A stretch of DNA of 46,890 nucleotides from Thermodesulfovibrionales bacterium (GTDB lineage Bacteria; Nitrospirota; Thermodesulfovibrionia; Thermodesulfovibrionales; CALJEL01), in contig JAOACK010000010.1 of assembly GCA_026417875.1 (NCBI GenBank), positions 1-46,890 of the forward strand. The letters run 5' to 3'. A program made the translations under genes and the position numbers. Shown piece by piece: positions 1 to 35,889 of the stretch (positions within the stretch are counted from its first letter, which is position 1; every line of letters starts with the position of its first letter). The notes under the pieces are model-generated. The model was not told the DNA's origin. It made no database searches and worked only from the letters and a program-made list of their open reading frames with translations.

Positions 1-19
1 AGATGTGTATAAGAGACAG
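1..19. other. Tn5/Nextera mosaic-end adapter remnant
   Basis: The first 19 bases, agatgtgtataagagacag, are identical to the Tn5 mosaic end used in transposase-based sequencing libraries. They are not genomic. They also create a false start to the first reading frame (residues MCIRDR), a known artefact peptide. Genomic sequence begins at about base 20. Confidence 0.97.
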
Positions 20-1112
20 GATACAGATAGACCTTGGACTGCCGGCCTATACAGGCGGCACAAAGGCAACTATAGACGTCTTTGCAATTACCTTTGCACT
101 GATGGTCGGAACTGCCGGACTACCCCATATTATCATCAGATTCTTTACAACACCAACCATAAAGGGAGCCAGAGCATCAGCTGGATGGGCACTTCTATTC
201 ATAGCAATACTCTACACAACAGCACCTGCTGTAGGAGCCTTCGCCAAACTTAACTTTATACAGACCCTTCACAACAAGACCTATGAAGAGGCACCATCCT
301 GGTTCAAGAACTGGGAAAAGACAGGTCTCGTTGCATGGAAAGATAAAAATGGTGATGGCAAGATACAGTTCGGCAAAGGTGAGGCCTTAAAAGGCAAACT
401 TGAGTTTGCAAAGGATGAAACAGGTAAGCCTTTAATCGGACCGCACGGAGAAAGGGTTGTCAAAACAGAAGCAAATCCAGCATCTCCAAATGAACTTTAT
501 GTTGACAGGGACATAATGGTTCTTGCAAATCCAGAAATTGCAAAACTTCCTGCCTGGGTAGTTGCCCTTGTTGCAGCAGGTGGACTTGCCGCAGCCCTTT
601 CAACTGCAGCAGGACTTCTTCTTGTTATCTCCTCTGCCCTTTCCCATGACCTCATTAAGAATGTGATTGCACCAAAGATATCGGAAAAAACAGAACTTGT
701 CTGGGCAAGGATTGCAGCAGGCCTTGCAGTAATTATTGCTGGCTATTTCGGTATTAATCCACCGGGATTTGTTGCTCAGGTTGTAGCCTTTGCCTTCGGG
801 CTTGCAGCTTCATCCTTTTTCCCTGCGATACTGCTTGGAATATTCTGGAAAAGGACAACAAAGGAGGGAGCCATTGCAGGAATGCTTACAGGTATAACCT
901 TTACGGCAGCTTATATTATTTACTTCAAATTTGTTAATCCTGCAGCTAACACACCAGAACACTGGTTCCTCGGTATATCTCCTGAAGGGATTGGCACAAT
1001 CGGAATGCTCATAAACTTTGTTGTTACAATTATAATATCTAAACTCACCAAAGAGCCTCCTAAGGAGGTTCAGGAGATGGTTGAAAGCCTCAGGTATCCA
1101 AGAGAAGCTTAA
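20..1112 (+). CDS. Sodium/solute symporter (acetate/ActP-like), 3' part
   Basis: This is the C-terminal part of a sodium:solute symporter (SSS family). The 5' end is cut off by the contig edge, and the apparent start codon lies in adapter sequence. Visible are the motif GLPHIIIRFFTTP near the beginning, about six further membrane segments, and a long hydrophilic insert (about residues 85-170) containing KDKNGDGKIQFGKGEA, which looks like a calcium-loop type sequence. Such inserts occur in the acetate permease-like subgroup annotated next to acetyl-CoA synthetase. The gene lies 57 bases upstream of the acs reading frame, which supports uptake of acetate or another short carboxylate at the inner membrane. 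Substrate is inferred from family and context only. Confidence 0.85.
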
Positions 1113-1169: not shown

Positions 1170-3153
1170 ATGGCAGAAAAGGTTATCGCAGAAAAGATTG
1201 ATGTATTACTTGCTGAAAAAAGAACCTTTCCACCCTCAAAAGAATTCTCCGAAAAGGCTCATATAAAAAGTATGAAGCAATATGAGGAGATGTACAGAAG
1301 ATCTATTGAAGATCCTGAGGGTTTCTGGGCAGAGATGGCTGAGAAACACATAACATGGTTTAAGAAATGGGAAAAGGTTCTTGAGTATGACTTTAACAAA
1401 CCCTATATTAAGTGGTTTATAGGAGGAAAACTCAATGCCTCCTATAACTGCCTTGACAGGTTCATCAATACACCTGTAAGAAACAAGGCAGCAATTATCT
1501 GGGAGGCTGATGATGGCTCTTATAAGACCCTGACCTATCAGCAACTTTACTGCGAGGTGAACAGATTTGCAAATGTTCTTAAAAAACATGGAGTCAAAAA
1601 AGGTGACAGGGTGACCATATACCTTCCCATGATACCAGAGCTTCCAATTGCCATGCTTGCCTGTGCAAGGATTGGTGCCATTCACAGCGTTGTATTTGGT
1701 GGATTCAGCGCACAGGCATTAAGGGACAGAATACAGGGACTGCAAGGCAAAGTTAGTTATAACAGCAGACAGAGGTGTAAGAGGTGAAAGACTGGTTCAA
1801 CTAAAGGCAAATGCAGATGAGGCACTCCAGGAATGCCCGACAGTGGAAAAGGTAATAGTTGTAAAAAGAACACAAGGAGCTGACATGGAACCTGGAAGAG
1901 ATATCTGGTGGCATGAGGAGATGAGTGCTCCAGACATTAAAAACTACTGTGAACCTGAATGGATGGATGCAGAAGACCCGCTCTTTATCCTCTATACCTC
2001 AGGCTCTACAGGAAAACCAAAAGGTGTGCTACACACAACTGGTGGATATATGCTTTATACAAACATGACCTTCAAATACATCTTTGACTATCATGATGAG
2101 GACATCCATTTCTGTACAGCAGATATTGGGTGGGTAACAGGTCATAGCTACATTGTTTATGGTCCCCTCAGTAATGGAGCAACAAGCCTCATGTTTGAGG
2201 GGGTACCAACCTATCCTGATCCCGGAAGGTTCTGGCAGATATGTGATAAACACAAGGTATCAATCTTCTACACTGCACCAACAGCTATAAGGGCATTGAT
2301 GAGAGAAGGTGAACACTGGGTTCACAAACATGACCTGTCATCATTAAGACTTCTGGGTTCGGTGGGAGAACCTATAAATCCAGAGGCATGGATCTGGTAT
2401 CATACCCATGTTGGAAAGGGCAAATTACCCATTGTTGATACCTGGTGGCAGACGGAGACAGGTGGAATACTTATAACGCCACTTCCTGGTGCAATGACAT
2501 TAAAACCAGGGTCTGCAAACAGACCCTTCTTTGGAGTTGTTCCCAAGGTTCTGAAAGAAGATGGTTCACCAGCAGGGGTGAATGAAGGTGGTTATCTTGT
2601 TATAGAGAAGCCCTGGCCAGGCATTCTCAGAGGAACATATGGTGATCCTGAAAACAAAAGGATAAAGGAAGTATATTTCTCAAGATTCCCTGGCAAATAC
2701 TTTACAGGTGATGGAGCAAGGGTTGATGAAGATGGTGATTACTGGCTAATGGGAAGGATTGATGACGTTATAAATGTATCAGGCCACAGACTCGGCACTG
2801 CTGAGATAGAATCAGCCCTTGTGAGCCATGAATCAGTTGCAGAGGCAGCAGTTGTGGGGTTCCCTCATGAGATCAAGGGTGAAGGTATTTACTGCTATGT
2901 GACACTTAAAGAAGGTTATGAACCCTCTGAAGAACTCAAGAAGATACTGGTCGGCCATGTCAGGACCGTGATAGGTCCTATAGCCACACCTGATAAACTT
3001 CAGTTTGCACCAGGCCTTCCAAAGACAAGAAGTGGAAAGATAATGAGAAGAATCCTGAGAAAAATAGCTCGCGGAGATATTGAAGACCTCGGTGATACCT
3101 CAACCCTTGCTGACCCTTCTGTTGTGGATAATCTGGTAAAAGGAAGGCTGTAA
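1170..3153 (+). CDS. acs: Acetyl-CoA synthetase, split by a one-base frameshift
   Basis: AMP-forming acetyl-CoA synthetase, which converts acetate, ATP and CoA to acetyl-CoA. The first frame (1170-1787) carries the N-terminal domain and [13 protein letters not shown], then runs off into a stop. The second frame resumes with TADRGVRGE and contains the AMP-binding signature [21 protein letters not shown], and the C-terminal SGKIMRR with the lysine acetylated in relatives. Removing one G from GGG at 1736-1738 restores a continuous protein of about 660 residues, the usual Acs length, reading [19 protein letters not shown] across the joint. The start has a strong GGAGG site at 1158-1162. Everything else looks intact, so the shift is either an assembly or sequencing error or a very recent mutation. 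Identity is certain; functional state is not. Confidence 0.93.
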
Positions 3154-3332: not shown

Positions 3333-3361
3333 TTGAATACTTCTATAATTTTTGCTATAGT
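3333..3361 (+). promoter_or_regulatory. Sigma70-type promoter of the PstS-like gene
   Basis: TTGAAT (3333-3338), a 17-base spacer and TATAGT (3356-3361) precede the ribosome site AAAAGGAG (3371-3378). This argues that the in-frame TTG at 3333 is not the start codon and that translation begins at ATG 3384. Confidence 0.6.
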
Positions 3362-3383
3362 ATCAAATAAAAAAGGAGCTTTG

Positions 3384-4268
3384 ATGAATTATAAGAGGTC
3401 TTTCATTACAATAGCTGCTTTTCTATCCTTTCTTATTCTCACAGATACCATTGCCCATGCACAAAAAATTCTAAGAATTAGAGGGTCAAGTACTCTCCAT
3501 CCTGTAGCCACCATTGCAGCACGTATCTACGGAAAAAACCATAATATAAGAATAATTGTTGAAGGTGGCGGTTCAACAAAAGGTATAGAAGGTGCTGGCC
3601 AAGGGGCTGTTGATGTAGGAACAGCATCAAGAAACATTTATCCAGAGGAAAAGAAGAAATACCGTGATCTTATTGTACATACCATTGGCTACGAAGGAAT
3701 AGCAATAATTTTGAATAAAGAGAATCCTGTTGATAATCTAAGCTCAAAACAGATAATAGATATTTACACTGGCAAAATCAGAAACTGGAAGGAGCTTGGC
3801 GGATCTGACAGACCTATTAAACTTATAAGCAAGGAATCTGGCAGCTCTACTCTTGATTTGTTTCTTGAACACTTTAAAATGGAAGTAACTAAGAAAGAAA
3901 ATCTGATGTATTATAAAATAAAGGGTGATAAAGAATATTCAGAAACAGGTGCCAGAATAATCGGTCAGGACAGTGAGGTTATTGGGGCAGTCTCAGCTGA
4001 ACCCGGTACTATTGGATATGTATCAATAGTCACAGCAGAGAAGGCTGCAAGAAAACTCAAAAAGATAAAAAGGATTAAGCTTGATGGTGTAGAAGCTTCA
4101 AAAGAAAATGTTAAAAACAAAATCTATCCCTTAATGAGACCTCTTAATCTTATAACAAAAGGACGGCCAGCTGGCGACATAAAAGAATTTATAGAATTAC
4201 TACTCTCAGATAAAGGGCAGAATATTGTAAAAAATCTTGATTATATTCCAGTAAGACAGGAGATGTAA
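3384..4268 (+). CDS. PstS-like phosphate/oxyanion-binding protein
   Basis: Periplasmic substrate-binding protein of the PstS type, 294 residues. A signal peptide covers residues 1-26 (hydrophobic core [14 protein letters not shown], cleavage after AHA). The mature part shows the anion-binding loops of the family: [23 protein letters not shown] and [12 protein letters not shown]. The start is set by AAAAGGAG six bases upstream of the ATG. No pstC, pstA, pstB or phoU is nearby. Instead the next gene, one base downstream, is a chemoreceptor, so this protein may serve as a ligand-presenting partner for chemosensing rather than transport; that is inference. The ligand could be phosphate or another oxyanion. 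Confidence 0.85.
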
Positions 4269-4269
4269 A

Positions 4270-5976
4270 ATGAAAGGACTTTCTATCAGAGTAAAGATAT
4301 TACTTACCCTCTTGGGACTCACTCTCCTATCAGCAACGGGAGTATTTATCTACCATGTCATCGAGATGGCTGAGAAGATTGAAGAAACATCCTCGGAAAA
4401 ATACAAGCTCTTCTCATCCTTCCGGGCATCACAGGCACTTGACCTTCTCATAACAGACGATCGCAATGGCCTTAAGATCCTGACAGATGAGGTTAAAAGT
4501 TCAAAGGATGTCCTTTATGCAGTATTTACAGATGCTGATGGAAAGGTTATACACCATACATTCAGAAGCGATGTACCACAGGAACTGCTATCAATCATAA
4601 GGGAAGGTCGGCCGGTCGCAGAGGAATTTATCCTTCAGGATTTTGGAAGACACTATAGCATAATATCACCTATAGGAGACTATGGATACCTGACAATAGG
4701 TTTTAAGAAACCCTCAACATTTGAGCTTATAAAAGAAGAGAGCGGAGATCTGCTTATAGTCTACGGAATAGCCCTGTCTCTTGGTCTATTACTATCATTT
4801 TTTATTTCTTCAAGGATACTTAATCCTCTGAAGGACCTGATGTCAGGTATAGAGAGATTCGGAAGGGGTGAAAGTGTAGAGATAAAAATAAGATCGAAGG
4901 ATGAATTTGGTAAGATAGCACGGGTATTTAATGAAACACAGCAAAAACTTAAAGGCCTTGTGCTGACAGCAGAAGAAAGAGAAAGGATGCAGGAAAATAT
5001 AGTAAACTTTCTTAATCTCCTGAGCGCTGCATCCGAGGGAGACCTCACTCAAAGGGCTGAGGTTACACCTGATGTATTTGGTTCCCTTGGTGACGCCTTC
5101 AATCTCATGGTAGAAGGTCTCACAGAACTTGTAAATGATGTTAAGGGCTCTGTTGAAGGAGTCTCCAGAGAGGCGACAAGAATACTGAATATCCTGAAAG
5201 AAATGGAAAAGGGTGCAGAGATCCAGATGGGAGAGGTAAAAAAGGCAACAGAAGCAACCGATGAGGCAGCGCGTTCAGCAATGGCAATTAGTGAAAAAAC
5301 ATCAGAGGCACATCAGATAGCATCTCTAGCAACAGAGGCAACCTCAAGGGGTTCAAAGACAGTTCTTGAAGCAATTGATGGAATACAGCTGATAAGGGTC
5401 ACCATACAGGCAATCAATAAGAGAATGAAATTTCTTTCTGAAAAACTTATGGAGATAGGAACTATATCAGGTCTCATTACAGAAATAGCCAACAGGACAA
5501 ATCTCCTTGCTATCAATGCCTCCATAGAGGCCTCAAGGGCAGGTGAGCAGGGTAAAGGATTCATTGTCATAGCAGAAGAGATAAGGGCACTTGCTGAGCG
5601 AGCAGCAAAATCAACAAAACAAATAGGTGATATCATTGGAGCAATCCAGACAGAATCAGGAGAGGTTACAAGACATCTTGAGGAGGCTACAGGATTTGTT
5701 GAAAAGGAAACAAGGACAGCACAGGAGACAGGAAAGGTCTTTACAGAGATAGAGGATATTATAAAAAAGATAAGCACTCTAATTGAAGAAATACATGAAG
5801 CCTCAGAGGGTCAGAAGGAATTGAGCTCAAGGGTTGTTCTCTCAATGGAAGAGGTGCAAAGGATATCTCTTCAAATGCTCAAGCTCGTGCATGATTTCAG
5901 GGATGTAGCAAGAACCCTTTCTGGAACATCCGACAGACTCATGGGCTCAGTTAAAAAGTTTAAGGTAGAGGCATAA
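4270..5976 (+). CDS. Methyl-accepting chemotaxis protein, PilJ-like
   Basis: Chemoreceptor of 568 residues in the inner membrane. TM1 is at about 8-28, a short periplasmic region at 29-158, TM2 at 160-180, HAMP at about 181-233, and a second HAMP-like segment at 243-300 ([20 protein letters not shown]) that resembles the arrangement in PilJ of type IV pilus systems. The signalling hairpin tip [20 protein letters not shown] is intact at about 412-431. It overlaps nothing, starting one base after the PstS-like gene, so the two are co-translated neighbours. No C-terminal pentapeptide for CheR/CheB docking is visible. The operon of cheA/cheW-type genes converging from 13000 to 6923 is the likely signalling partner. 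Confidence 0.9.
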
Positions 5977-5992: not shown

Positions 5993-6496
5993 ATGGAATT
6001 AGCAATTCATTTCAGACCCTATCTTCAGAGAATTTCAGAAATAATCAATAAAAGTGAGAACATAACTCTCAAGGTCTCTTCATTAAGGATACTGGCAAGA
6101 GATTTTGTTCGAAGATTCATACAGAATCTTGTAGCCAATGTTGACCTTGATGAGCTCAATAATATCAGCGAATCAGAAGATATTAAGGACAACCTGTTCC
6201 TTAAAAAGCTTGACGGAAATTTGATCAGGTATGATTCTGTAAAAAGAGAGGTTCTAATAAGCACCACATGCCCCTTTGTTCATTTTTTTGAGGAAATCAG
6301 AGATGATACCTTCTTAAAGGAATACGAAAAGAGCTTTAAAAGAGAAGGCATCATGCATCCTCTCTGTATAGTCCATCAGATTATAAGAGAGGAATTGTTC
6401 TCAAGAATAAGAAAAGGACCGCTGTTTACCCTCCTGTACTCCTCGGCACAAGGAATATTCTCACAGGAGCCATTACTGTCGAAAAAAGAGAACTAA
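5993..6496 (+). CDS. Unknown 167-residue protein with Cys/His cluster
   Basis: I do not recognise this protein. It has no signal peptide or membrane segment. It follows the chemoreceptor by 16 bases with a weak AGG ribosome site. The C-terminal half carries C93, H97, H122, C125 and H128 (within TTCPFVHF and MHPLCIVHQ), a set that could bind a metal or a small redox ligand. The sequence is rich in charged residues and predicted helix. By position it could modulate the receptor or the chemosensory operon. Codon use resembles its neighbours. Confidence 0.7.
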   Translation: MELAIHFRPYLQRISEIINKSENITLKVSSLRILARDFVRRFIQNLVANVDLDELNNISESEDIKDNLFLKKLDGNLIRYDSVKREVLISTTCPFVHFFEEIRDDTFLKEYEKSFKREGIMHPLCIVHQIIREELFSRIRKGPLFTLLYSSAQGIFSQEPLLSKKEN

Positions 6497-6922: not shown

Positions 6923-9235
6923 CTATGAAAGGGATAAATATTTTCTTAAGATCTCAAGCATTGCCTTTTCTTCAAAGGGCTTAACAATAAAGTCCTTCAC
7001 ACCACTCTGTAAGGCCTTGATCCTGTGCTTCTCAGCACTCCTTGACGTTAGCACCACAACCGGAATATCTCTCCACTTTTGCGAGGTCCTGATCCTGTGA
7101 ATCAGTTCATAGCCGTGCATAACGGGCATCTCAAGATCTGTTATTAGAAGGTCAACGTTATGGTCTTTAAGAATATCCAGTGCTTCAGCTCCATTTGTAG
7201 CAGTAAGAACCTTTAATTTCATTCTTTCAAAAAAGGCTGTAAGATATTTCCTCACACTTAGAGAATCATCCACCACAAGTACGGTCTTTGAATCTTCTTT
7301 CTGTTTTTCTTCTAAAACCAGGGCGGTTTTTATCTCAGACCTGAATATGCCCAGAGGGTTTAGAACAAATCTCAGTTTTCCGTCTCCTGAGATCGTTGAG
7401 CCTGAATAAACAGAAAGACCTGAAAGAAATTTATTCATGGGCTTAATTATGGTCTCCTCCTGGCCTGCTATTTCATCAACAACAAGCCCGGCCCTTCTGT
7501 CTGTTAGATTGCAGATAATAAGCGGTTTTTTTTCGGACCTCTCATCAACAAGACCAAGGACATTTGAAAGTCTTTTTATTTCTATCTCTACGCCTCTGTA
7601 ATTAAACAACCTTAATCCATCCTCGAGATCAATCTCTGTAACCTCGTCAACAAAATTCATGGGAATTGCAAATTCTGTATTACCTGCCTTTACAACTATT
7701 ACATTAGTTATAGCAAGAGAGGTGGGAACCTTTATTGTAAAGGTAGTTCCCATACCAACCTCAGAATCAACCTCTATGGATCCGCTGATCTGGGCTATCA
7801 GATTTCTAACGGCATCCAGACCCATACCCCTTCCTGAACCCATATCAGCTGCGGTACTTGTCGTAAAGCCCGGCATAAATATAAGACTCAGTAGTTCCTG
7901 TTTGGAAGGCCTGTAATCAGGCCTCATGAGCCCGAGTTTTACAGCTTCCTCAAAGATCCTGTATGTGGGTATACCCCTTCCATTATCATGCACCTCAACA
8001 AGAACGAGAGCACCCTCTCTTCTTGCGCTCAACATAATAACACCGGTAGCTTTTTTTCCTTTCTGCCTTCTTTCTTCAGGTCTTTCTATACCATGTATAA
8101 TAGCATTCCTGATAAGATGCATCAGAGGATCAAAGAGTCTCTCAAATATAACCTTATCAATCTTTGTATCTCCACCATTAATAAGAAGCTCCACTTCCTT
8201 ACCATACTGTTCAGCCATCTCTTTTACTGGTCTGGAAAATCTCTGGAAGAGCCTTCCGATCTCTATCATCCTCATCTCTGATATCTCTGTTCTGAGGAGT
8301 TTAATAAGATTATCCACTGATTTTAGATCATCACCGAATTCATCAAAAAATTCTGAAAGGCTCTTAAGGGCCTCTGTTATGTCGGCAATCATCTCCTGAA
8401 GTTTTCTTGAGAAAAGGTTCAGATCATCATATCTGTCAAATTCCAGCTCTCCAAATTCAGCAAGCAGAGGATCAACATATCTAACACTTCCGGGTAGGGA
8501 ATAGGAATAACGTTCTGAAAAGGAATTAACCTCTTTAAGGAGCCTGGCACCGGCAATAGTTATCTCTTCGGAAAGGTCTGATTTTTTTTTAATCTTCTGA
8601 AGGAGATAATTCTTCTTAATAGTTATCTCTCCAATAAGATTCAGTATATTCTCTATCTGGGCGATGTGCACTCTGACAAAATTTCCTGTAAAAAGGTCAA
8701 TATCTTCCTTTCTCCTCCCTATGCTTAATCTTTTTTCTGCTGCAGGAGTTATAATCTCGTGCTGCAGAGTTGGAGGTTCGAGAGCTCGGTCTTTAATTGT
8801 ATTAACCGGTTCCACTTCAGAGCCAGAAGTCTCAACTGTTTTCTCTTCTGAACTCTTCAGTGATGCTTCTATGTATTTTATAATCTCTTCATCCCTGCCA
8901 GGGGTCTCTTTTTCGCCTGATGATATCCTTCTTACTTCATTCTTTATTGCATCAAGCCCGTAAAGCAGAAGGTCTCTGATAGAGCTGGTAACCTTTCTTT
9001 TACCATCCTTTATTTCTTCAAGAATATCTTCCATCCTATGGGCTATTCTGCTTATACCATTGAGTTTTACCAGAGCAGCTGCTCCCTTGAGTGTATGGGC
9101 GGATCTGAAGAGAGACTCTATTGATGATGTGTCTACATCCTGTTCGAGACCGGATATTCCTTCCTCAAGGTTATGAATGTGCTCCTCTGCCTCCTGGAGA
9201 AAGAACTCAAGAAGTCCCGAAGTGTCGTATGACAT
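6923..9235 (-). CDS. cheA: CheA-type hybrid kinase with C-terminal receiver (ChpA-like)
   Basis: Central kinase of the chemosensory operon, 770 residues, cytoplasmic. Domains in order: HPt (about 1-105) with phospho-acceptor H47 in SAHTLKGAAA; a linker; a dimerisation region; HATPase with N-box HLIRNAIIHGIERPEER and G-boxes DNGRGI and GSGRGMGLDAV; a CheW-like domain (about 510-640); and a receiver (about 650-770) with DDS, D in LITDLEMP, and K in IVKPF. The receiver at the C-terminus is the arrangement seen in ChpA and FrzE-type kinases, where it may act as a phosphate sink. Its ATG overlaps the cheW stop by one base. The stop codon is TAG. There are no cheR, cheB or flagellar genes nearby. 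Confidence 0.93.
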   Translation of the reverse strand: MSYDTSGLLEFFLQEAEEHIHNLEEGISGLEQDVDTSSIESLFRSAHTLKGAAALVKLNGISRIAHRMEDILEEIKDGKRKVTSSIRDLLLYGLDAIKNEVRRISSGEKETPGRDEEIIKYIEASLKSSEEKTVETSGSEVEPVNTIKDRALEPPTLQHEIITPAAEKRLSIGRRKEDIDLFTGNFVRVHIAQIENILNLIGEITIKKNYLLQKIKKKSDLSEEITIAGARLLKEVNSFSERYSYSLPGSVRYVDPLLAEFGELEFDRYDDLNLFSRKLQEMIADITEALKSLSEFFDEFGDDLKSVDNLIKLLRTEISEMRMIEIGRLFQRFSRPVKEMAEQYGKEVELLINGGDTKIDKVIFERLFDPLMHLIRNAIIHGIERPEERRQKGKKATGVIMLSARREGALVLVEVHDNGRGIPTYRIFEEAVKLGLMRPDYRPSKQELLSLIFMPGFTTSTAADMGSGRGMGLDAVRNLIAQISGSIEVDSEVGMGTTFTIKVPTSLAITNVIVVKAGNTEFAIPMNFVDEVTEIDLEDGLRLFNYRGVEIEIKRLSNVLGLVDERSEKKPLIICNLTDRRAGLVVDEIAGQEETIIKPMNKFLSGLSVYSGSTISGDGKLRFVLNPLGIFRSEIKTALVLEEKQKEDSKTVLVVDDSLSVRKYLTAFFERMKLKVLTATNGAEALDILKDHNVDLLITDLEMPVMHGYELIHRIRTSQKWRDIPVVVLTSRSAEKHRIKALQSGVKDFIVKPFEEKAMLEILRKYLSLS

Positions 9236-9642
9236 CAGGCGGTATTCCTCACCATATAGGTCTCAAAGAACTTATTTATATCAATGATACCATCCTCAGG
9301 AACTGACTCTGCGAATACAAAATTCGGAAGACCTTCGGAAAGAAATCCTATCAGTTCCCCCCTTACCTCAACAACCATTAGCATATCAGGTTCTACGGCT
9401 GTATCGGTCCTTCGTTCCAATCTATTGAGGTCAATAACTGGGATAACAGTTCCCCTTAGGGGTATTGCTCCTCTTATATAATGCGGGGCAAGGGGTACAG
9501 GAAAGATTTCTTTGACCTCCACCACCTCTTTTAAGATATCAACAGGAATATAATAAACACTCGTCCCTCTCCTAAAGGAGCAGTAAGAGGGTCTCTTTAT
9601 TTCCTCTTGGAACTCATTCTCTTTCTTTGCTATCTCATCCAC
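9235..9642 (-). CDS. cheW: CheW-like coupling protein
   Basis: Coupling protein of 135 residues that links receptors to the CheA kinase. It shows the CheW fold pattern: YCSFRRGTSVYYIPVDILKEVVE, PHYIRGAIPLRGTVIPVIDL, and the late strand ELIGFLSEGLPNFVF. The start overlaps the upstream receiver gene by eight bases and the stop overlaps cheA by one base, so translation of the three is coupled. It is close to the minimal CheW length and carries no extra domain. Confidence 0.9.
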   Translation of the reverse strand: MDEIAKKENEFQEEIKRPSYCSFRRGTSVYYIPVDILKEVVEVKEIFPVPLAPHYIRGAIPLRGTVIPVIDLNRLERRTDTAVEPDMLMVVEVRGELIGFLSEGLPNFVFAESVPEDGIIDINKFFETYMVRNTA

Positions 9643-10000
9643 CGAGGTGTTTTTTTACGGTCAAAAGAAGTTCAAGGGGTTCACAGGGCTTGGTGAGATA
9701 TTCATCAGCTCCCTGTTTTGTTCCCCAGAGTCTATCACTCGGCTGATCCTTGGAGGTAAGAAGAATCACAGGAATGTTCTTGAGCTTTTCATCACGCTTT
9801 ATATCTCTACAGACCTGGAAACCATTTTTCTTTGGCATAACTACATCAAGGATAATCAGATCAAATGGCTCAGATCTCACAAGTCTTTCTGCCTCTTCAC
9901 CATCCGTTACAACAACAAGTTCATGGCCTGTCTGTGAGAGTACGCTTTTTATAAAATGAATATCTGTAGGGCTGTCCTCTGCAATGAGAATTCTTGACAT
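9635..10000 (-). CDS. Single-domain response regulator (PilH/CheY-like)
   Basis: Receiver domain only, 121 residues. Acidic pocket ED at 8-9, phospho-acceptor Asp in LIILDVVMPKKNG, Thr in LLTSKDQ and Lys in LTKPCEP are present. The pattern DRLWGTKQGADEYLTKP is typical of PilH-type regulators of twitching motility rather than flagellar CheY. It is placed directly before cheW in the operon, and probably accepts phosphate from the hybrid CheA. Confidence 0.88.
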   Translation of the reverse strand: MSRILIAEDSPTDIHFIKSVLSQTGHELVVVTDGEEAERLVRSEPFDLIILDVVMPKKNGFQVCRDIKRDEKLKNIPVILLTSKDQPSDRLWGTKQGADEYLTKPCEPLELLLTVKKHLGG

Positions 10001-10005
10001 GCCTC

Positions 10006-11271
10006 CTATTTCCCCTTTCTCCTGAGAATTCCTGCCCTTGTAAGTGTATAAATAATTCGTTTCACTTCGTTTTCCTCCATTCCGCTCATTTTAATTATAT
10101 CATTGAGGGTTCTTTTTCCGTCAATAAGGGAAAATATCCTGAGCTCGTTATCATCAAGATTTATATCTTCAAGAGCAACATCTGTCATGAGCCTTATAAA
10201 TATTATGTCAGGGTCCTGGAACATCTTGGCTGCATATTTCCTTTCATCAACCCTTCTTGCTCCTTCAAGTATAAGATGAGATGCCGGAATTCGAACCTTT
10301 ACATCAGTAAGATGAGGTGGAATCTGCATCCTCTCAAAGAAAAAATTTCCGCTATCAAGCTCCATTGAGGAGTATACGGCTTCTCTGGTTCGTTCCTCGA
10401 GAATCTTCATAATTTCAGACTCTGTTAATATTTTTTCATCAACAAAGGCCCTGAGAATCGGTATACCTGATTTCTTGGCTGTCCTGTAAGCCCTGTAAAA
10501 GGCCTCTCTTGAGACATTCAGTTTTTTCTCTATTATCTCTCCTGAAAGTAAACTCCTGCCCTGCTTGCTTGTAGAAGCATAATAGATATTTCCTTTATCA
10601 AAATATATCTCTGCTGTCATGAGCGGAGAGTAAAGCGAAAGTTTCCCTGTTGCCTTCGTGGAATCAAGAAGTTGTAAAAGATCTGAAACACTGAAATCTG
10701 ATAGATCACCGCTCAAGATTATGCTGGAGGTCTTTACAACTCCTGAATGTTTGAGAATATCAGAAAGTGTCCTCTGTATCAGAACGGGAAGCTCTTTGTA
10801 AAGATACCTGCTCAAAAGTCTGTCTATAGTCTCCTCCACCGCACTCTCGGTAACTACCTCAGTCTCTTCAACAACCTCTGCGATACCTTCGAGTTCCTCT
10901 TCAGGGCTCAATATAGAATTTACCTTCTCAACAAGTTCCTCTGGCTGAAAGGGCTTAATAAAATAATCAATAACTCCGAACTCTTCTGTAAATTTCTCTC
11001 CAACAGCTTCTCCTTTAGCCGTAATAAGAATTATTGGCACATCTTTAAGTGAAGGATTCTTTCTGGCAAGTTTGCAGAACTGATAGCCATTCATTTTTGG
11101 CATAACGAAGTCTACAAGAATGAGAGATGGGGAGACTTTCTGTGCAATATCGAGACCTTTCTCACCATCCTCTGCTGTAAAGACATTGTATCCATTTTCC
11201 TTTAATACAACTTCTGCTAACTTTCTTACGGTAGCACTGTCATCAATGACAATTACATTTCCCTTTGGCAT
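10006..11271 (-). CDS. Receiver-PATAN (DUF4388) response regulator
   Basis: Response regulator of 421 residues. The receiver occupies about 1-122 (IDDSATVRKLAE, Asp in LILVDFVMPKMNG, Lys in FIKPF). After an acidic linker, residues about 185-290 form a PATAN/DUF4388 domain (LSGDLSDFSVSDLLQLLDSTKATGKL, AEIYFDKGNIYYA), followed by a helical tail ending in a winged-helix-like segment (LNDIIKMSGMEENEVKRIIYTLTRAGILRR). PatA-type proteins of this design act in cell polarity, surface motility and pattern control. It sits between the heme sensor and the PilH-like gene, three and five bases away. Output target is unknown. Confidence 0.88.
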   Translation of the reverse strand: MPKGNVIVIDDSATVRKLAEVVLKENGYNVFTAEDGEKGLDIAQKVSPSLILVDFVMPKMNGYQFCKLARKNPSLKDVPIILITAKGEAVGEKFTEEFGVIDYFIKPFQPEELVEKVNSILSPEEELEGIAEVVEETEVVTESAVEETIDRLLSRYLYKELPVLIQRTLSDILKHSGVVKTSSIILSGDLSDFSVSDLLQLLDSTKATGKLSLYSPLMTAEIYFDKGNIYYASTSKQGRSLLSGEIIEKKLNVSREAFYRAYRTAKKSGIPILRAFVDEKILTESEIMKILEERTREAVYSSMELDSGNFFFERMQIPPHLTDVKVRIPASHLILEGARRVDERKYAAKMFQDPDIIFIRLMTDVALEDINLDDNELRIFSLIDGKRTLNDIIKMSGMEENEVKRIIYTLTRAGILRRKGK

Positions 11272-11274
11272 TGA

Positions 11275-12156
11275 TTATTTCTTCCTCAAAATATCCATTG
11301 CCTTCATGAGGCTCAACTTCATCCTCGTAAAGGCATTTGCAAGAGTCTTTATCTCATTTTCTCCTTTCACAACAAAATCTCTCTCAAAATTACCTCTACT
11401 TATCTCATCGGCAGTTTCAACGAGTTCCTCGATGGGTTTTATGATACTGCTCTTGATCAGCCTGTCGATAACTAAGATTATAATGAGGAATAGAAGACTG
11501 TACACAATAGAAAATATCATAAGTGCCCTCATGGCATTCTGAATAGGTACATCTGCTGGCACATATACAGTATTGGCGCCTATAATCTCTCCATCCTTCC
11601 AGTTATATCCCGAGGTGGTGCCATATCTTCTTCGCTGGTCCTCTGTTGCCATCTCAGGGTCTCCATGACACCTGAGACAGTAAGCCTCAACCACAATAGG
11701 GGTCATTATTACATAAGAACTGCCGTGCTGTGTATCGATAAAGCCACGCCACTGCTCTCTGAGCTTTCCAGTCCTGAAATCATTAATCTTATCTGTCTCA
11801 AACTGATTTGCCTTATTGACCGGATTGAGAGGATTAAGACATGCGAATTTAAAAGAGTACTGCCTATCAGATTCTGTAATTATATCTGATATCTCTCTTA
11901 TTACATAAAAACCTGAGGTAAGCTCAACAGGTTCTTTATCTGTAAACTCTTCAAGCACCGGTCTCATGGTGCCACCAACATATTGCTTTATAGCATCCAT
12001 GGCTCTGAGCATCATCTGTGCTCTCTCAATACTTTCCTTCTCTGCATTTTTTAAAAGGACCTGGTAACTTATCAGGATGATTAAAGGAAGTGAAACGATG
12101 TAAACAATAACCATTATCAGTGTGAAGCTTTTCCTTAATTTGAGATTCCCGAACAT
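11275..12156 (-). CDS. Membrane heme-c sensor (Tll0287/DUF3365-like) with HAMP
   Basis: Inner-membrane sensor of 293 residues. TM1 is at about 12-33, an extracytoplasmic domain at 35-210, TM2 at about 213-236 and HAMP at about 236-285; the protein then stops. The periplasmic domain contains C160-L-R-C163-H164, a c-type heme attachment motif, in the context of DUF3365/Tll0287-like sensors (GFIDTQHGSSYVIMTPIVVEAYC). There is no kinase, cyclase or receptor signalling domain. Because it is translated with REC-PATAN, CheW and CheA genes, it probably passes a redox or gas signal through HAMP to a partner such as the PilJ-like receptor. That pairing is inference. Confidence 0.85.
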   Translation of the reverse strand: MFGNLKLRKSFTLIMVIVYIVSLPLIILISYQVLLKNAEKESIERAQMMLRAMDAIKQYVGGTMRPVLEEFTDKEPVELTSGFYVIREISDIITESDRQYSFKFACLNPLNPVNKANQFETDKINDFRTGKLREQWRGFIDTQHGSSYVIMTPIVVEAYCLRCHGDPEMATEDQRRRYGTTSGYNWKDGEIIGANTVYVPADVPIQNAMRALMIFSIVYSLLFLIIILVIDRLIKSSIIKPIEELVETADEISRGNFERDFVVKGENEIKTLANAFTRMKLSLMKAMDILRKK

Positions 12157-12166
12157 TCTTCACCCC

Positions 12167-12688
12167 TTATATTTTATATTTTGAACTAAACTTTTCCTGC
12201 TCATGAGCAGGTAACTCCTTTATCAGTGAATCTACAAAAATCTTGTATTCATCCTCTGGCATGGAATTACCTCTGGAATATGAAATTTTTGAAAAAAGAT
12301 CATCTATTATCAATTTACCTATAGGACCTATTAGTTCAATAAACTCTTTCTCGAGTTTCTGAATCTTTTCTGGAGTGATCATCATCCCCGTTTTTGTTTT
12401 AAGGGATTCTGCTGAAGGTAAACCAAGGGCATCTATGAATTTATCCGTGCATCCACCTTCTATCTTTTGAGGAGGGGTTACGCCTCTAAGAAAAAAATGT
12501 TCAATAGGAACAGCATTCTTTAACTTTGAAAAACATTCCTCATTTTTAAAAGTTCCTAAAGTTACATACATGACCTCTCCATTTTCTATATATACCTTGA
12601 GGAGATGATTCTCATTCTGAAGTTTAACTGAAATAACTCCTGATTCCCCTTTTCTGAGATATTGTTTTATTATCTCAGCAAGTCCCAT
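12167..12688 (-). CDS. Unknown 173-residue protein of the chemosensory operon
   Basis: Cytoplasmic protein without membrane segments. Residues 1-75 (GVISVKLQNENHLLKVYIENGEVMYV) resemble the strand pattern of PATAN/DUF4388 domains, in which a ligand-like sheet is followed by GxVxYV. Residues about 108-173 (EKIQKLEKEFIELIGPIGKLI and onward) resemble a C-terminal helical module found in several signalling proteins, where the phrase LIGPIAK/LIGPIGK recurs. Both resemblances are from memory and weak. It is ten bases upstream of the heme sensor gene. Role unknown, probably an accessory of the pathway. Confidence 0.65.
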   Translation of the reverse strand: MGLAEIIKQYLRKGESGVISVKLQNENHLLKVYIENGEVMYVTLGTFKNEECFSKLKNAVPIEHFFLRGVTPPQKIEGGCTDKFIDALGLPSAESLKTKTGMMITPEKIQKLEKEFIELIGPIGKLIIDDLFSKISYSRGNSMPEDEYKIFVDSLIKELPAHEQEKFSSKYKI

Positions 12689-12691
12689 CCC

Positions 12692-13000
12692 TTAACAGCC
12701 TCTGAGACTCCTGATATAGGTTCCAATCTTCTTTCCATCTTTAATAATATATCTTACAGATACCTTCTCTCCTATCTCTATCTTAAGTCTCTCAATTCTT
12801 GAAAATACCGCATCATCCTCAAAAATTATTGTTACTTCTGCACCGTTTTTGTCCTGGACAACAATTGTCTTCTTTGCTTTATCAACACTAATGAGTTTGC
12901 CTTTAATAAGCTCTGTGTTCTCTGAACTGACTGCAGAGGTGATTGCAAAAACAAAGAATATCAGAGTAATAAAAATTGGCACTAACCTGGTTCCTTTCAT
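12692..13000 (-). CDS. Small secreted OB-like protein, unknown function
   Basis: First gene of the chemosensory operon, 102 residues. Residues 1-25 form a signal peptide or anchor (LVPIFITLIFFVFAITSAVS). The rest is a small beta-rich domain (IKGKLISVDKAKKTIVVQDKNGAEVTIIF) typical of tiny periplasmic OB-fold proteins that bind nothing known. One Cys is at the C-terminus. The start has AGGAGG nine bases upstream, behind an extended -10 promoter. Function not assigned. Confidence 0.7.
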   Translation of the reverse strand: MKGTRLVPIFITLIFFVFAITSAVSSENTELIKGKLISVDKAKKTIVVQDKNGAEVTIIFEDDAVFSRIERLKIEIGEKVSVRYIIKDGKKIGTYIRSLRGC

Positions 13001-34476: not shown

Positions 34477-35889
34477 TTATTTTTCTCCAATGGCAGGCAG
34501 TTCTATTGTAAAGGTTGTTCCCTCGCCCTTTCTGCTTTTTACAGATATATTTCCGTTATGGGCTGTTATAATTCCATATGTGATGGAGAGTCCCAGTCCT
34601 GTACCTTTACCAACAGGTTTTGTTGTGAAGAAGGGCTCAAAGATTCTGTTTATATGTTCATCTGGTATGCCGTTCCCTGTATCGCTTATCTCAAGCACTA
34701 CGGAATGATCTTTGCTCTTGATTGATATATCTATTTTCCCCTCACCTTTTCCTGTTTCCATTATGGCATCCTGGGCATTCTTGAGGAGGTTCAGCACTAC
34801 CTGCTTAATCTGATCTGGATCTGCATTAATAAGAGGAATATTACTATAATTTCTGTTGACGATTATCCCTGATGAAGAAAATTCGTATTCAAGAAGTTCA
34901 ATCACCTTATCAACTATCTGTCTGAGATCAATATACTCCTTGAGAGGCTCTCTCTGCCTTGCAAATTCCCTTAGGTTCCTCACAATCTTTGATGCCCTGA
35001 TCGCTGATTCATATATCCTTGATAAAAGGATTTTATAATTTTCTGGTAAAGAGTCTTCACTCATCGCCATCTCTGAATATCCCACAATTACCTGAAGGGG
35101 ATTATTTAGCTCATGACTCACACCGGCCACAAGTTCTCCAAGAGCAGTAAGCTTTTCTGCCTGTGCTGCCCTGTTGGCAATTGTCTTAATCTCTTCCTCC
35201 TTTTCCTTTAGCTGACTCTGAAGTCTCATGAAGGCATCTTTTACAGGTAAAAAGTCCTCACCGAAGTTTATCTCATCTACATTCTTACCTTCTGCGATAT
35301 CAACTGATGCCTTTATTACAGAGAAGATATTCTTCTTCAGGCTTCTGTTCACCAGCAAGAAGACAGCAAAAATAAGACCTCCACCGGCAAGCGTAACAGA
35401 AAATGTTAGGATACCCATTCTCCTTATCACGTAAATACCTCTTTCTATCCTTTCACTCATGAAATTTCTTCCGTTAACAAGGGCTTCCGCGGTGAGGTCA
35501 TCCATCTTGTCAAAGATAATCCTTACTTCGTATTCATTAATAACGCTTTTCTGAGTAATATCACTGAGCCTCTCATTAAAAACGGAAAGCCTCTGTATGA
35601 GAAAAATAGCATCTTTATCAGCACTTCCTCTATGACATTCCATGCATTCGCCAAGGATCGCCTCAAGCTCCTTAACTCCACTTGAAAGGGATTCTATTGA
35701 AGGAGTTTCTTTTTCAAATCTTATAATGAATTCGTGAAGCCTCTGACGCTGGAGCAGACTCTCTGTAGCTGTATTAATCATTATCATTTCCTTATTAAGC
35801 CTCAGGAGGCTTAAGAAGGCAACAAGTGCAGCTCCTGCAAAAAGAAAAATAATAATGATCAGTGCAATGATTAATGTTCGTTTTATCAT
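34477..35889 (-). CDS. Membrane histidine kinase with periplasmic heme-c motif
   Basis: Sensor kinase of 470 residues. TM1 is at about 5-30, an extracytoplasmic domain at 31-157 that contains C82-M-E-C85-H86, a c-type heme attachment motif, TM2 at about 159-181, a short linker, HisKA with H259 in VAGVSHELNNPLQV, and HATPase with VVLNLLKNAQDAI, DTGNGIP and GTGLGLS. Heme binding suggests sensing of redox state, oxygen or NO. No response regulator is adjacent, so it is an orphan kinase. It lies 80-100 bases from its neighbours. Confidence 0.9.
   Translation of the reverse strand: MIKRTLIIALIIIIFLFAGAALVAFLSLLRLNKEMIMINTATESLLQRQRLHEFIIRFEKETPSIESLSSGVKELEAILGECMECHRGSADKDAIFLIQRLSVFNERLSDITQKSVINEYEVRIIFDKMDDLTAEALVNGRNFMSERIERGIYVIRRMGILTFSVTLAGGGLIFAVFLLVNRSLKKNIFSVIKASVDIAEGKNVDEINFGEDFLPVKDAFMRLQSQLKEKEEEIKTIANRAAQAEKLTALGELVAGVSHELNNPLQVIVGYSEMAMSEDSLPENYKILLSRIYESAIRASKIVRNLREFARQREPLKEYIDLRQIVDKVIELLEYEFSSSGIIVNRNYSNIPLINADPDQIKQVVLNLLKNAQDAIMETGKGEGKIDISIKSKDHSVVLEISDTGNGIPDEHINRIFEPFFTTKPVGKGTGLGLSITYGIITAHNGNISVKSRKGEGTTFTIELPAIGEK

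Follow-up and report, generated by a model that had tools for sequence, protein, structure and literature searches.

Introduction

When the chain of a membrane receptor stops at its HAMP domain, which protein reads the signal? The question is posed by a 293-residue open reading frame (11275–12156, minus strand) in the window analyzed here, that is, a 46,890-nucleotide stretch of a contig from a Thermodesulfovibrionales bacterium. HAMP-only receptors are puzzling in that both the prototype HAMP structure, Af1503 of Archaeoglobus fulgidus, and an NO-binding protein of P. azotoformans are without an output. Af1503 has been described as a receptor cut down to a single cytosolic domain, HAMP, and archaeal HAMP-ended receptors as often coupled to proteins of 60–90 residues like Af1502, which have a common LGPx(x)A motif; the domain of these proteins, STAC, also connects SLC5 transporters with two-component domains in CbrA (available part of PMC4834066, CASP11 target paper). 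The HAMP-only sCache_heme protein of P. azotoformans is described, in the available part of PMC12889525, as a dimer that lacks an axial Cys and binds NO tightly, with no binding of O2. The HAMP-only sCache_heme architecture itself is already published (P. azotoformans; archaeal Af1503), and what is new here is a likely STAC partner for the bacterial HAMP-ended heme receptors, together with the effectors attached to STAC. Among the papers listed in our searches, none pairs bacterial HAMP-ended heme receptors with STAC effectors; the original STAC paper may mention bacterial cases.

The Receptor Chain Ends at HAMP

Pfam finds two domains in the receptor, a Tll0287-like domain (PF11845) at residues 36–200 (11557–12051; E = 3.3e-34, 118.8 bits against a cut-off of 24.1) and a HAMP domain at residues 236–283 (11308–11451; E = 2.7e-10), and none C-terminal to HAMP, the MCP signalling domain being absent. 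The Tll0287-like domain, or DUF3365, now goes by the name of sCache_heme. A CLRCH heme-attachment motif, read from the sequence at residues 160–164 (11665–11679), lies between two hydrophobic segments (residues 11–29 and 212–230) and, assuming the topology common to such receptors, would be periplasmic. The order is hence TM-sCache_heme (CLRCH)-TM-HAMP, followed by a stop, with HAMP as the only recognized cytoplasmic domain, and the layout given in a first-pass annotation made from the letters alone (a periplasmic CLRCH site, two membrane segments, HAMP, then the end) is confirmed. No variation is seen at C160, C163, and H164 among 8 orthologues or among 27 HAMP-ended homologues, counting the window protein; genes for cytochrome c assembly are found in the same genome, and from these and the CxxCH motif we predict that heme c is covalently attached. 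A structural model of the receptor (mean pLDDT 86.7) has Tll0287 (PDB: 5b82) as its best solved match (E = 8e-9). Because the alignments stopped short of the first helix of 5b82, we make no claim about the distal heme ligand. Three proteins with a heme domain are encoded in the genome, and the receptor is the only one of HAMP length, the open frames of the others extending to 645 and 543 residues (their greater length being judged from the open frames alone).

Could the receptor serve in redox chemistry or electron transfer and take no part in signalling, a role proposed for stand-alone sCache_heme proteins? About half of all sCache_heme domains are stand-alone, and the proteins concerned look redox-like (PMC12889525, available part). 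We consider this very improbable for the present protein, given its pair of TM segments and conserved HAMP domain, the lack of a Cys in the first helix of its sensor (residues 36–71) to serve as a redox-type axial ligand, and the dimeric, NO-binding behavior of the characterized protein with this domain order (PMC12889525, available part). The P. azotoformans protein is like the receptor in having TM-sCache_heme-TM-HAMP order, a CxxCH motif, and no Cys in the first sensor helix; it is presented in the available part of that paper with no partner named, whereas a partner family is proposed here.

The end of the chain is itself a conserved feature. The receptor stops at 11275, and the start codon of the next gene is at 11271, 3 nt on, which leaves no space in which a further domain could be hidden. 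The same C-terminal end is seen in 8 orthologues (40–85% identity, the window protein counted among them), and the end of HAMP, give or take a few residues, is the end of the chain in 34 of 34 short homologues. A frameshift that hides an output domain, which the first-pass annotation had named as the finding that would overturn its reading, is thereby ruled out, and its proposal of a receptor front-end that hands its signal to another protein is supported. The thought that the receptor might be a decayed chemoreceptor that has lost its MCP domain draws on heme-domain MCPs in sister genomes and on a degenerate receptor-STAC copy in G001, and is scarcely credible when the point of termination is conserved, along with the sequence right up to it, in 8 orthologues with identities as low as 40% and across many phyla. 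By sequence profile, the best HAMP match for the family of HAMP-ended receptors among solved structures is AF1503 (E = 3.3e-13, vs. ∼1e-7 for Tsr and NarQ in the PDB), which is also the best PDB match of the window's own HAMP domain.

The Receptor Lies in a Chemosensory Operon

The receptor gene belongs to a minus-strand unit in which successive genes are separated by gaps or overlaps of ∼10 nt or less. The unit is headed by an exported-looking protein of 102 residues (12692–13000), kept in two relatives, followed by a 173-residue protein (12167–12688), the receptor, a REC-DUF4388 (PATAN-type) response regulator of 421 residues (10006–11271), a single-domain response regulator (REC, 121 residues; 9635–10000), CheW (135 residues; 9235–9642), and a CheA-type kinase of 770 residues composed of Hpt, ATPase, CheW, and C-terminal REC domains (6923–9235). 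These Pfam assignments agree with the CheA, CheW, REC, and REC-PATAN partners listed at first pass; the gene upstream of the receptor (12167–12688), which is key to our reading, had not been singled out. A convergent unit on the plus strand holds a complete MCP of 568 residues (4270–5976; weak sCache-like sensor, HAMP, and MCPsignal), with a PstS-like periplasmic binding protein upstream (3333–4268; Pfam PBP_like_2, E = 2e-40) and a conserved 167-residue protein downstream (5993–6496). As a correction to the earlier reading, this MCP belongs to the neighboring convergent unit and lies outside the operon. The 167-residue protein contains Cys, has no Pfam match, is kept beside the MCP of the system, and is doubled in the nearest relative (L034, 3906–5104).

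The first-pass annotation had suggested a survey for conserved co-occurrence. The CheA clade of the system (at least 470 bits) was found in 16 of the 61 genomes examined, and a HAMP-ended receptor shares its locus in 11 of the 16, a stable place within the chemosensory system. In six of these the receptor is of the heme type (G000, G001, G014, G054, G018, and G019), and in five the slot is held by another HAMP-ended receptor (G009, G021, G031, G041, and G051), namely a 376-residue form with a dCache_3 input or a 274–275-residue form with an unnamed, shorter input. As for the remaining five, the heme domain is on the MCP in G002, neither arrangement is present in G043 and G006, the contig edge intervenes in G039, and in G059 the receptor sits in a separate locus. 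Two details of these genomes may be recorded: G001 holds another copy of the STAC-receptor pair that is degenerate and interrupted by stop codons (C76:3988–4474), and a PilB/GspE-like ATPase adjoins the MCP of the chemosensory system in G043 (L133, 12885–14741, minus strand).

A Likely STAC Domain in the Adjacent Gene Product

The 173-residue protein is encoded immediately upstream of the receptor, with a 10-nt gap, and appears to consist of a weakly PATAN/DUF4388-like N-terminus and a STAC-like four-helix domain of ∼70 residues (residues 104–173; 12170–12379, minus strand). The N-terminus scores 16.7 bits against PATAN/DUF4388 in Pfam (E = 0.0078), under the 25-bit cut-off, and 35% in hhalign; we therefore call it only PATAN-like. 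When residues 1–69 of the model were compared with known structures by VIA-align, no PATAN structure was among the matches listed, only common folds with low Z.

For the C-terminus, a profile of the family has AF1502 as its first PDB match (E = 4.3e-4), with GPIAK common to both. The model contains four helices, with IGPIG at the junction of helices 106–120 and 123–134, and the LGPx(x)A-type motif of STAC, recognized through the family profile, is present. Foldseek ranks Af1502 (PDB: 5a1q) first with the model as query, but with an E-value of only 0.17 (probability 0.91), and VIA-align likewise places 5a1q first for residues 105–173 (65 of 69 residues aligned, rmsd 3.1), at a Z of 5.4 that is low for a helix bundle. 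Pfam gave no consistent family match over 34 members of the STAC-like family. Each structural or profile score is modest; sequence, model, motif, and gene neighborhood nevertheless agree, and the domain is likely STAC-like. It is the single STAC match in the window's genome.

STAC Genes Lie beside HAMP-Ended Rather than Fused Heme Receptors

We compared 80 loci, 34 with HAMP-ended heme receptors and 46 with heme receptors fused to outputs, scanning every ORF (ORFs were called mechanically, with no gene finder); the flanks of the fused controls reached up to 10 kb in either direction. Outside the training operons, a STAC profile built from Nitrospirota only, applied with a single fixed search size for all loci, has matches in 9 of 28 HAMP-ended loci and in 0 of 45 fused ones (Fisher p = 7e-5, a value that overstates the number of independent events because the loci are related to one another). 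An iterated profile, grown partly on loci later counted with it, finds STAC at 21 of the 34 HAMP-ended loci and at 1 of the 46 fused ones, L112, whose operon is of the same type; no STAC lies nearby in the other 13 of the 34. No match was obtained among 4654 shuffled ORFs. The 34 HAMP-ended receptors form eight clusters at 45% identity, seven of which include a STAC match, and no HAMP-STAC fusion is found among the 46 fused receptors. DUF4388 alone had been considered as the shared feature (11 of 34 HAMP-ended vs. 1 of 46 fused loci, with seeds taken partly from counted loci) and was replaced by STAC.

The contrast extends to gammaproteobacteria. Among the best 30 loci from 274 genomes searched, STAC lies within 1.5 kb in 17 of 18 intact HAMP-ended loci and in 0 of 10 fused ones (Fisher p = 8e-7), the fused controls here being weaker than those of the 80-locus set in that their flank is often truncated on one side. 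Two loci were left out of this count, L207, whose STAC is in the training alignment, and L231, whose receptor is broken and has a STAC gene adjoining. The training loci of the profile came from other groups, with L078 added; because the Nitrospirota-only profile finds just two gammaproteobacterial loci (L208 and L217) and no plasmids, the result hinges on the widening of the profile. On plasmids (8 of 9 tblastn records), six of seven HAMP-ended receptors stand beside a STAC-bearing Ser/Thr kinase, vs. none for the one fused receptor.

The association can also be read from the STAC side. A search with the STAC protein of 173 residues gave matches in 41 of 395 genomes, and in the best 30 loci, which were examined, a HAMP-ended receptor is adjacent in 25 (16 of the heme type and 9 of the dCache genus); in the rest, the receptor is in the operon (two loci), a heme-domain MCP lies opposite (two loci), or the contig ends early (one locus). 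Window-type STAC loci with no HAMP-ended receptor nearby are L112, L168, and L169, with L170 undecided. A STAC match is present in 20 of 24 genomes from other phyla that have HAMP-ended heme receptors (none in the other 4), and in one of five genomes picked for their fused receptors, where it is itself beside a HAMP-ended receptor. Where STAC was found at new places in those genomes, a HAMP-ended receptor lies within 1.5 kb at L182, L185, L196, L203, and L206, and none lies within that distance at L181, L183, L184, L191, L201, and L204.

Do the receptors instead signal into the array through the convergent MCP, by HAMP-HAMP packing in mixed dimers or arrays that tune CheA? In four loci the convergent MCP itself carries the heme domain (G002 (L127), L112, L168, and L169; Pfam E = 8.3e-34 in the first and 9.7e-33 in L112, profile matches in the other two), and in five genomes of one genus (L128–L132) a HAMP-ended receptor is accompanied by an MCP whose two TM segments are connected by a short loop, leaving it almost no periplasmic part. 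The window's MCP has a sensor of its own, however, and the sensor-poor MCP of G043 has no HAMP-ended receptor in its locus. Five class-distant receptor-STAC pairs (L153, L155, L156, L158, and L160) have no Che gene within the surrounding sequence that was read, and outside Nitrospirota most HAMP-ended heme receptors adjoin STAC proteins, not Che genes, which also weakens any partner inferred from the CheA context alone. Signalling through the MCP therefore seems to us unlikely, and the PilJ-like receptor put forward as partner at first pass is probably the wrong one, the association data favoring the adjacent STAC protein. Receptor-STAC and receptor-MCP contacts may both be real if STAC bridges the receptor and the array. 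The sensor-poor MCPs of L128–L132, each next to an output-less HAMP-ended receptor, are in their own right a possible split chemoreceptor.

A Proposed Two-Protein Receptor

Our preferred reading, which we hold with moderate confidence, is that the protein supplies the sensing half of a redox/NO receptor built from two proteins. A STAC effector would read it in trans and feed into a chemosensory pathway of the PATAN type, probably one of type IV pili. The predicted covalent heme c on the periplasmic Cache domain would change state with redox potential or with a gas; analogy to the P. azotoformans protein favors NO over other ligands, and by the same analogy the heme may sense NO or redox state. 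TM2 would relay the change to the HAMP dimer at the end of the receptor chain, and the STAC protein (12167–12688) would bind and read the HAMP end in trans, in an arrangement resembling archaeal Af1503/Af1502. Its PATAN-like N-terminus would then act on a target common to the operon's REC-PATAN regulator, probably the type IV pilus motor, such that the heme signal meets the CheA-phosphorylated branch at the level of the output. A role in redox taxis, raised at first pass, is possible.

As in Af1503/Af1502, the receptor ends at HAMP, in a family whose HAMP domain is closest to AF1503 among solved structures, and the product of the neighboring gene has a four-helix domain of the STAC type in which a GPx(x)A/G motif occurs; unlike the archaeal pair, the window system is bacterial, has a heme-c Cache input, has STAC fused to an effector-like module, and is set in a chemosensory rather than a transport context. 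The SLC5-STAC histidine kinases CbrA and CrbS also have a small STAC domain between a membrane input and an output, in cis behind the transporter, whereas here it would act in trans behind a HAMP-ended receptor. The Geobacter heme-c MCPs GSU0582 and GSU0935 have a periplasmic heme-c sensor and HAMP but carry an MCP domain of their own (PMC8396549, available part). For the output, cyanobacterial PATAN regulators contact PilB, and in the PixD-PixE pair there is already an example of a PATAN regulator held in trans by a sensor (PMC10519157 and PMC7690835, available parts). The cyanobacterial Pix/Pil systems resemble the window in having CheA, CheW, REC, and PATAN regulators, and differ in that the window order is REC-PATAN and in the input; PilB is present in the window's genome, and we infer the link to pili by analogy with these systems.

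STAC proteins carry more than one kind of effector. Ser/Thr protein kinase domains are found on STAC proteins beside HAMP-ended receptors in L062, L072, L211, L218, and the plasmid records; adenylate/guanylate cyclase domains are found in L210, L212, and L213, over the cut-off, with L209 just below; and a caspase-like peptidase is found on the STAC protein of L048, again beside a HAMP-ended receptor. Other N-termini are unnamed, as in a 210-residue STAC family. We lean slightly toward the broader view that STAC is a general bacterial reader of HAMP-ended receptors, with interchangeable inputs and effectors paired by gene neighborhood and not by fusion. If so, inputs (heme-c Cache, dCache, and others) would end at HAMP, and effectors would dock through one small STAC domain, the effectors of the split system being PATAN-like modules, Ser/Thr kinases, adenylate/guanylate cyclases, and caspase-like peptidases. 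The association names a partner family for the heme receptors and predicts effectors from kinases to cyclases, and it turns the question of whom HAMP-ended receptors talk to into one that can be tested with purified two-protein systems.

Two observations concern particular STAC families. Type VI secretion genes are present in the stretch read in five of six plasmid STAC-kinase loci (L238, L239, and L241–L243), where a HAMP-ended heme receptor and a STAC-Ser/Thr kinase may provide an input to secretion control. In Desulfobulbales, the 210-residue STAC proteins (L059, L060, L065, L116, and others) adjoin DUF4388 proteins; their N-terminus has no Pfam match and presumably resembles the roadblock/LC7 fold.

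Other Features of the Window

A histidine kinase elsewhere in the window (34477–35889, minus strand) has a CMECH (CxxCH) motif in an N-terminal, probably periplasmic, helical region and is a second candidate heme-c sensor. On the plus strand, one gene is split into two ORFs (1170–1787 and 1843–3153) by what looks like a frameshift, either true or an assembly error; we take it, by resemblance, to be acetyl-CoA synthetase-like. The first ORF of the window (3–30, plus strand) begins with MCIRDR, which we assume to be a common assembly or adapter artefact.
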